Below are positions 23,864 to 55,981 of a stretch of 64,000 nucleotides of DNA, piece after piece; within the stretch, counting starts at the first letter, position 1; every line of letters begins with the position of its first letter. The position numbers were made by a program, and so were the translations under genes. The notes beneath the pieces were generated by a model. The model was given only the letters and a program-made list of their open reading frames with translations. It searched no databases and had not been told where the DNA came from. This stretch comes from Myxococcota bacterium (lineage in GTDB: Bacteria > Myxococcota_C > UBA6777): positions 1 to 64,000 of the forward strand of contig JAKLKB010000001.1 of NCBI GenBank assembly GCA_023150835.1. Direction: 5' to 3'.

Positions 23864-23974
23864 GGATGGGTCGTCTAGTGGTAGGACACCGGAAACAAGC
23901 GTGCTTTGTACAAAGCACCACAGCAACACCAAAAACTCACGCCGGTAACGGAGGTTCGATTCCTTCCCTGTCCG
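23864..23974 (+). tRNA. tRNA-Glu (CTC) interrupted in the anticodon loop
   Basis: The acceptor stem GGATGGG/CCTGTCC (7 pairs, two G-U), the Glu-type D arm GTCTAGTGGTAGGAC, variable loop TAAC, T arm GGAGG-TTCGATT-CCTTC and discriminator G are all intact and diagnose tRNA-Glu. The anticodon stem CCGG (23,889-23,892) pairs with CCGG (23,942-23,945), but 49 nt lie between instead of about 9. The insert has the 18-nt palindrome GTGCTTTGTACAAAGCAC (23,901-23,918), then CACAGCAACACC and A-rich sequence running into CTCACG. That last piece supplies anticodon CTC with A37 and C38. Residues 31-33 (expected to include U33) are not recognisable on the 5' side, so exact splice points are unclear. CCA is not encoded. 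A T-run follows at 23,975. The structure is seen directly; removal of the insert is inferred. Confidence 0.8.
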
Positions 23975-24041: not shown

Positions 24042-24149
24042 GGAGAAGTAGCTCAGTTGGTAGAGCAATGATCATGTGTGTCTTGTACAAGACACCACAG
24101 CAAACCTTTTGGCATTCATGGGTCGCGGGTTCGAACCCCGCCTTCTCCA
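24042..24149 (+). tRNA. tRNA interrupted in the anticodon loop (identity unresolved)
   Basis: Acceptor GGAGAAG/CTTCTCC (7 pairs), D arm GCTC-AGTTGGTA-GAGC, variable loop GGGTC, T arm GCGGG-TTCGAAC-CCCGC and discriminator A are complete. The anticodon stem ATGA (24,068-24,071)/TCAT (24,116-24,119) encloses 44 nt. The insert contains the palindrome GTGTCTTGTACAAGACAC (24,078-24,095), then CACAGCAAACC and TTTTGGCAT. The hairpin and the CACAGCAA-ACC box match those in the tRNA-Glu insert, with compensating changes in the stem. Candidate anticodon triplets lie at both borders (CAT on the 5' side, TGG on the 3' side), so the amino acid cannot be assigned. CCA is not encoded, and a T-run follows. 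Confidence 0.75.
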
Positions 24150-55330: not shown

Positions 55331-55745
55331 CGAAAACTCCTGTGGAATGAGGCTTCGCTGCGTTACAAAAAACGCAGACCGCGTAGAGGTTTACTTAAAC
55401 ACCATCACATCACAAGTGACATCTCTGTGAAAAAGATCCCCCAAACCACGACCCACACAAACAGCAAAGCCCACACAAGCAACGAAAGCAGAAGAGAAGA
55501 AACGAAAGGAAGAGAGCGGAGGGGGAAGGCCAGCCGAGAGGCCAAGCGTCAGGGGTTTGTGGATCGTGAAGGGAGACCGAGGCATCGAACGGTTTCTTGT
55601 CTGCCGCATGGCTCTCGAAAGAGCGAACACACGGGAAGAAAAGAAAGATCGGATGCACTTTGCGACCACAACAGCCCACCACGCACCGCGTCTGCCCGCG
55701 TCTTCGGCTGGCTTACCACTCCAAGGAACCAAAAAGGAGGTTGTT
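55331..55745. other. Intergenic region with decayed family A fragment
   Basis: No gene I can support. Around 55,590-55,640 the plus strand reads CTGCCGCATGGCTCTCGAAA + GAGCGAACACACGGG, which resembles the opening half of a family A repeat in reverse, heavily diverged. The stretch next to the permuted tRNA (minus-strand AACAACCTCCTTTTTGGTTC) is the trailer of that transcript. Confidence 0.5.
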
Positions 55746-55821
55746 TCTGATTAACAGTCAGATGCTCTACCCACTGAGCTATGAAGGCTTACGCCTTCAC
55801 TGGGAGTCGAACCCAGGACCC
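55746..55821 (-). tRNA. Circularly permuted tRNA-Asn (GTT)
   Basis: Read on the minus strand the order is: variable loop GGGTC, T arm CTGGG-TTCGACT-CCCAG, 3' acceptor strand TGAAGGC (55,821 down to 55,793), a 4-nt linker GTAA, then 5' acceptor strand GCCTTCA, TA, D arm GCTC-AGTGGGTA-GAGC, A, and anticodon arm TCTGA-CTGTTAA-TCAGA (55,788 down to 55,746). Put in normal order this is a complete tRNA-Asn: 7/7 acceptor pairs, 4/4 D stem, 5/5 anticodon stem with anticodon GTT, 5/5 T stem, and G73 supplied by the first base of the linker. The join would fall between positions 43 and 44. Just before the 3' half stands TCAAA, nearly a copy of the TCAGA that ends the 5' half. No second T arm follows and no second 5' half precedes. 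Processing is inferred. Confidence 0.8.
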
Positions 55822-55828
55822 TTTGAGG

Positions 55829-55904
55829 CCAGTCGCTCTGCCGCTGAGCTACGGAGGTTTTGGGCCTCCGCCGGGACTCGAACCCGGGACCCACTGAAGC
55901 AAAA
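55829..55904 (-). tRNA. Second tRNA with permuted halves (identity unresolved)
   Basis: Minus-strand order: GACTTTTGCT, anticodon-stem strand TCAGT, variable loop GGGTC, T arm CCGGG-TTCGAGT-CCCGG, 3' acceptor strand CGGAGGC, linker CCAAA, 5' acceptor strand ACCTCCG, TA, D arm GCTC-AGCGGCA-GAGC, G, and anticodon-stem strand ACTGG (ends at 55,829). Rearranged, the acceptor pairs at 6 of 7 positions, the D and T stems are perfect, and ACTGG/TCAGT pairs with one G-U. Only seven bases (CCTCAAA) separate it from the permuted tRNA-Asn, so both are probably in one transcript. The anticodon lies at the join and cannot be read; TTG upstream of TCAGT and CAA after ACTGG are both possible fragments. Confidence 0.7.
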
Positions 55905-55925
55905 GTCGTTGATGTTCCTCGATAT

Positions 55926-55981
55926 GCGGGACACGCAGTCCTGATTTGTGAGTCTCTGCGTGCCGCCAAGATACATCCCGC
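55926..55981 (-). promoter_or_regulatory. Nested inverted repeats in the leader of the permuted tRNAs
   Basis: CACGCAG (55,932-55,938) pairs with CTGCGTG (55,956-55,962), and outside it GCGGGA (55,926-55,931) pairs with TCCCGC (55,976-55,981). On the minus strand this lies about 20 bases upstream of the first tRNA half. It may be a processing signal or a terminator for the upstream gene. Confidence 0.55.

Follow-up and report, generated by a model that had tools for sequence, protein, structure and literature searches.

The window is the whole stretch of 64,000 nucleotides of Myxococcota bacterium DNA that was analysed. Its minus strand carries two neighbouring tRNA-like units, in which the two halves of a tRNA stand in swapped order. 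The features of this locus, in minus-strand order, are listed below.

55926..55981, minus strand: upstream hairpin GCGGGA...CACGCAG...CTGCGTG...TCCCGC, read by eye from both sister species
55914..55921, minus strand: 5' strand of the predicted enclosing helix, CGAGGAAC, pair probability 0.81-0.97 with 55722-55729
55829..55897, minus strand: second permuted unit, 59.9 bits with the permuted-tRNA model and 35.8 bits with YrlA
55746..55821, minus strand: permuted tRNA-Asn-like unit by direct reading, 67.6 bits, tRNA-Asn when reordered
55821-55817, minus strand: variable region GGGTC of the Asn-like unit
55816-55800, minus strand: its T stem CTGGG/CCCAG with loop TTCGACT
55799-55793, minus strand: its 3' acceptor TGAAGGC
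55792-55789, minus strand: its linker GTAA (4 bases)
55788-55782, minus strand: its 5' acceptor GCCTTCA
55779-55764, minus strand: its D arm
55762-55746, minus strand: its anticodon arm TCTGA-CTGTTAA-TCAGA
55722..55729, minus strand: 3' strand of the enclosing helix, GTTCCTTG, from the predicted fold

The Asn-like unit is read in the order T arm, 3' acceptor, linker, 5' acceptor, D arm, and anticodon arm (GTT). Direct reading of the minus strand gave the same swapped-half anatomy and coordinates as an earlier note on this DNA, which had also claimed a full tRNA-Asn after reordering and no outer tRNA halves nearby. Both claims held: ARAGORN called tRNA-Asn(gtt) once the halves were put back in tRNA order, in this genome and for the sister copy, and no outer halves of a normal tRNA were found near the unit. 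In native order, no tRNA was called by ARAGORN anywhere in the window. A covariance model (R2) was built from 27 of the genome's own tRNAs, which were permuted in silico and then aligned. The Asn-like unit was its best match in the unit's own genome (67.6 bits, E 2.4e-18), which rules out a chance origin of the pattern. Folding of the precursor, suggested in the earlier note, predicted an acceptor paired across the linker (pair probability 0.8-1.0) and retained the anticodon arm.

Two matches to the Rfam tRNA model cover the Asn-like unit (35.3 and 30.5 bits), and both are forced normal-order readings. One has a poor T arm; the other spans two adjacent units, taking its D arm from one and its T arm from the following one. 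A normal-order tRNA with an intron was rejected, because no downstream T arm pairs with GCCTTCA. A central normal-order reading was also rejected, with 5 of 7 acceptor positions paired (by eye) and the anticodon arm absent. It is plausible that the unit originated from a tandem duplicate.

The second unit, overlooked by the earlier note, lies directly upstream on the same strand. Its order is TCAGT, GGGTC, T arm, CGGAGG, linker CCCAAAA, CCTCCG, D arm, G, and ACTGG. Its two ends (TCAGT/ACTGG) close an anticodon-type stem, and its own anticodon arm is absent. Decoding tRNAs need U33 and a purine at position 37; read as a tRNA, the second unit would be missing one or the other. In this unit, and in one or two at another locus, no anticodon loop could plausibly decode. 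An 8-bp helix is predicted to enclose both window units; it is identical in the sister species and thus gives no covariation. The upstream hairpin, just before the units, is also conserved, and a C-G to T-G change in the sister keeps the pair. The motif GTCCCGCRTATCG stands ahead of permuted units at two loci (window 55920-55932, minus strand; L114 1057-1069; L187). A scan for promoter and terminator consensus sequences around the window locus found nothing.

The family comparison covered five genomes, all of one family, which made up the whole phylum-level group compared. G000 is the genome of the window, and G001 is its sister, the metagenome-assembled Myxococcota bacterium KLAP109. In these five genomes, permuted units ranked at or near the top of the R2 matches. 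Ordinary tandem tRNAs also match R2, in a way nearly indistinguishable from permuted units, and telling the two apart requires a check for the outer halves; the matches were therefore sorted by overlap with normal tRNAs. The genome of the window contains at least six non-tandem permuted units at three loci, and further units were found in two other genomes.

G000 C201 (the window): two units, the Asn-like unit with GTT and the second unit
G000 C64: two permuted units
G000 C138: two units, one Tyr-like with GTA and one with a Leu-like body and a TGG anticodon arm
G003: one unit at C127 and two at C3
G004: one unit at C41

The anticodon arm is complete in three G000 units, the Asn-like (GTT), the Tyr-like (GTA), and the Leu-like body with TGG, and all three share a break in the variable region. 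The G003 C127 unit has TTGTAA in its 3' half, apparently a remnant of an old anticodon loop. The flanks of several family units pair and lengthen the anticodon-type stem, as in Y RNAs. For most units, known Y RNAs included, the closing duplexes of leader and trailer were individually not significant against shuffles; the power of these tests was low even with Y RNAs adjoining rsr, and they were therefore not used as proof.

Several other tRNA-related sequences were observed. A block of about 510 bp is kept between the sisters (L069/L188 at G000 C64; L070 at G001 C306). It contains two permuted units, a UUCG hairpin in which the changes preserve pairing, and a tRNA-like end (GGAGCGT...ATGCTCC) whose anticodon region is replaced, and is possibly one large structured noncoding RNA. 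The C138 locus in the sister has the same GTCCCGCRTATCG leader without the TGG unit after it; the leader runs into a sequence that resembles a cobalamin riboswitch by eye. Aberrant accessory tRNAs occur at L052 (C34), L061 (C200), L065 (C14), L056 (C77), and L058 (C178), and include a tandem array with odd D arms, an acceptor GTACAAA, an anticodon TCA, and a tRNA-Leu(TAA) without the long variable arm. At G003 C121 (L119), several tRNAs of Met(CAT) type lie in an array, and their D arms are unusual.

Five of the G000 units, at three loci, are conserved in G001. The sister copy of the Asn-like unit (L071) has linker ATGC, where G000 has GTAA, and acceptor TGAGGGC; the layout in a related genome, which the earlier note had proposed to look for, is thus present. 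That note had regarded a normal tRNA-Asn(GTT) elsewhere, together with a lack of conservation of the locus, as the mark of a pseudogene remnant. Such a tRNA is indeed encoded (L054), but the locus is kept in the sister and so is not a simple pseudogene remnant. With linkers excluded, ten substitutions separate the sisters in 347 nt of units. Eight are at unpaired positions, and two preserve a pair (A-U to G-U; G-U to G-C); the change in the Asn-like acceptor is A-U to G-U. None of the ten breaks a pair, where 3.4 were expected (P 0.012, random-placement simulation), so the units look like constrained RNAs and not like decaying debris. The permuted fold, including the pairing across the linker, looks to be under constraint; for most helices, the sisters have diverged too little to show covariation. 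The linkers also differ between the sisters, and their length and sequence vary freely across units. Three normal tRNAs showed no change in 230 nt against 10 in 347 nt of units (P 0.007), which makes the units less constrained than those three tRNAs. The Tyr-like unit has anticodon GTA in G000 and CTA in G001, and the Asn-like unit has G at base 73 in G000 and A in G001. Conserved blocks reach past the unit boundaries. The TGG unit at C138 is absent from the sister genome.

These comparisons bear on the view that the units are neutral or transient by-products of tRNA-array recombination, namely functionless tandem tRNAs that lost their outer halves. The aberrant tRNA arrays (C34 of G000 and C121 of G003), the apparent old anticodon loop at G003 C127, and the absence of the C138 TGG unit from the sister would agree with such an origin. 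However, five units at three loci are shared with the sister, no substitution breaks a pair, the Asn-like acceptor keeps its pairing through a G-U, and conservation extends beyond the units. A recombination by-product is considered unlikely.

Another explanation is a true circularly permuted tRNA-Asn gene that yields a decoding tRNA. After cleavage of the precursor, a ligase such as RtcB would seal the ends at 43/44, and RNase P and a 3' processing enzyme would then remove the linker. The reordered unit is a complete tRNA-Asn in both sister species, three units share the variable-region break with an intact anticodon arm, and an RtcB ligase is encoded in the genome. In addition, three tRNAs are interrupted in the anticodon loop, so that a common tRNA-splicing activity could be imagined. 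Nevertheless, the genome already has the normal tRNA-Asn(GTT), and the archaeal/eukaryal-type tRNA-splicing endonuclease (PF01974) was not found in the four family genomes searched. The flanks can pair, but inspection showed no clear bulge-helix-bulge at the junction. The second unit could not decode, the Tyr-like anticodon and base 73 of the Asn-like unit drift, and the units change more than the three normal tRNAs. A decoding tRNA from the Asn-like unit is judged quite improbable. If the units do mature into tRNAs, they would reveal a bacterial tRNA-splicing route that nobody has described.

The interrupted tRNAs were noted separately. Three tRNAs (Glu-like, Ala GGC, and Phe GAA) carry an insert of about 40 nt in the anticodon loop.

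23864-23974, plus strand of the window: interrupted tRNA
24042-24149, plus strand of the window: interrupted tRNA
L066 (C193): interrupted tRNA

The inserts share a hairpin around TTGTACAA, followed by CACCACAGC. The sister genome retains the interrupted Ala and Phe tRNAs, and its Phe copy shows a compensatory change at 31-39. Normal tRNAs for Phe, Ala, and Glu are encoded as well. Searches of two other family genomes (G002 and G003) did not recover the insert, and none of its 29 matches in viral contigs lies within a tRNA. A broader version of the previous explanation, in which the Asn, Tyr-like, and TGG units are real permuted tRNA genes and one undescribed bacterial splicing activity cuts them and the interrupted tRNAs before RtcB ligates, seems very doubtful.

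The units might also give a two-piece tRNA-like RNA. In this case RNase P and a 3' enzyme would excise the linker, and the halves would stay paired without ligation, as in permuted tmRNA. Permuted tmRNA genes of bacteria offer a precedent, since they have the same order and yield two pieces that are not ligated (PMC3978253). The linker is free to vary between units and, for the Asn-like unit, between sisters (GTAA to ATGC). Against this, no tag reading frame was noticed at the locus, the units have a standard D stem, and a one-piece tmRNA is encoded at C214 (198 bits). A two-piece product appears highly improbable. Identity as a permuted tmRNA itself was rejected from the C214 gene and from the lack of a tmRNA match at the window locus.

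The bacterial Y RNA YrlA provides the closest model. Structure comparison described YrlA as a circular permutation of tRNA (PMC11472068). Its basal stem bears the D, T, and acceptor arms, and the RNA binds PNPase and Rsr (PMC8394870). The Salmonella operon contains the paired yrlBA genes, and competitive inhibition of an anticodon nuclease was suggested as a role (PMC7790460). The swapped tRNA order is thus not new to bacteria but is the tRNA-mimic topology of YrlA. Features expected of YrlA also include D and pseudouridine modification. The earlier note had known of no accepted bacterial case; YrlA is already circularly permuted, and permuted tmRNA genes are bacterial as well.

The permuted module of YrlA (T arm, acceptor, D arm) is present in the window units, and the Rfam YrlA model (RF02553) matches both below its gathering score (35.8 and 32 bits; GA 69). 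A pattern scan of 84,980 prokaryote genomes returned, beyond the sister genome, one record, a Streptomyces unit (L082). It has the same acceptor as the window second unit (CGGAGG..CCTCCG) and lies immediately upstream of a TROVE/Rsr gene; by this position, it is a Y RNA. It also scores below gathering with RF02553 (27.2 bits), which indicates that this threshold is too stringent to be used against the window units. Outside the family, non-tandem units adjoin TROVE in Streptomyces (L082), in a viral contig (L177) and, among the matches of the YrlA scan, in G008 (C15) and G043, where two units accompany TROVE at C47:2726; the sole one without TROVE, also from the YrlA scan, is an orphan in G032. 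The latter unit (L011) scores 65.7 bits; its host genome is unrelated and has a listed completeness of 100%. Of the 12 pattern matches in viral contigs, 11 proved to be plain tandem tRNAs; the one exception adjoins a TROVE gene. TROVE was found in only 9 of 290 genomes, so its association with the units is not incidental. No TROVE/Rsr gene was found in the five family genomes (86-94% complete, multi-contig assemblies); its absence from one incomplete assembly would mean little, and five in a row are suggestive.

Taken together, we hold with modest confidence that the window units are YrlA-like tRNA mimics rather than tRNA genes for translation. One point against this reading is that the scores of family units can equal those of real permuted tRNAs. 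As a Y-RNA-like mimic, the locus would encode a noncoding RNA of about 200 nt (55722-55921, minus strand) with two permuted tRNA-like modules. The T arm, the short-looped acceptor stem (the linker being its loop), and the D arm may together make up the upper portion of the tRNA L, and the structure would be closed by pairing of the RNA's 5' and 3' ends. The RNA might serve as a stable decoy or scaffold for tRNA-binding proteins and would be neither charged nor used in decoding. Possible partners include modification enzymes, nucleases such as PNPase, and anticodon nucleases. What appears unusual is that Rsr is missing from all five family genomes and that three units retain an intact anticodon arm. 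If they are Y-RNA-like mimics, they would represent a branch that lacks Rsr and has paired modules and intact anticodon arms. They would also suggest a route from tRNA genes to Y RNAs and the possibility of a tRNA-mimic half that exists without Ro60.

The known systems resemble the locus to different degrees. Like the permuted tRNA genes of Cyanidioschyzon merolae, green algae, and Thermofilum pendens, its swapped halves reorder to a complete tRNA with an anticodon. Unlike them, it lies in a genome without a found splicing endonuclease or clear bulge-helix-bulge; its isoacceptor is redundant, a sibling anticodon is not conserved, and some siblings cannot decode. The permuted tmRNA also has the T arm and 3' acceptor ahead of the 5' acceptor and D region; however, the window units have a true D stem, no tag sequence was noticed, and an ordinary tmRNA exists elsewhere. 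The locus differs from YrlA (RF02553; structure 6CU1) in the missing Rsr/TROVE gene of the family, the scores under Rfam gathering, the anticodon arm of the Asn-like unit, which is not described for YrlA, and the two modules within one predicted enclosing helix. Because of the missing Rsr and the three intact anticodon arms, it is likened to YrlA and not filed as a proven member. Nevertheless, the window units and YrlA share the order of T arm, acceptor hairpin with a short loop, and D arm, together with tRNA-like D and T loops, ends predicted to pair, and often two units per locus, and the Y RNA beside rsr in Streptomyces has an acceptor stem identical to that of the window second unit.
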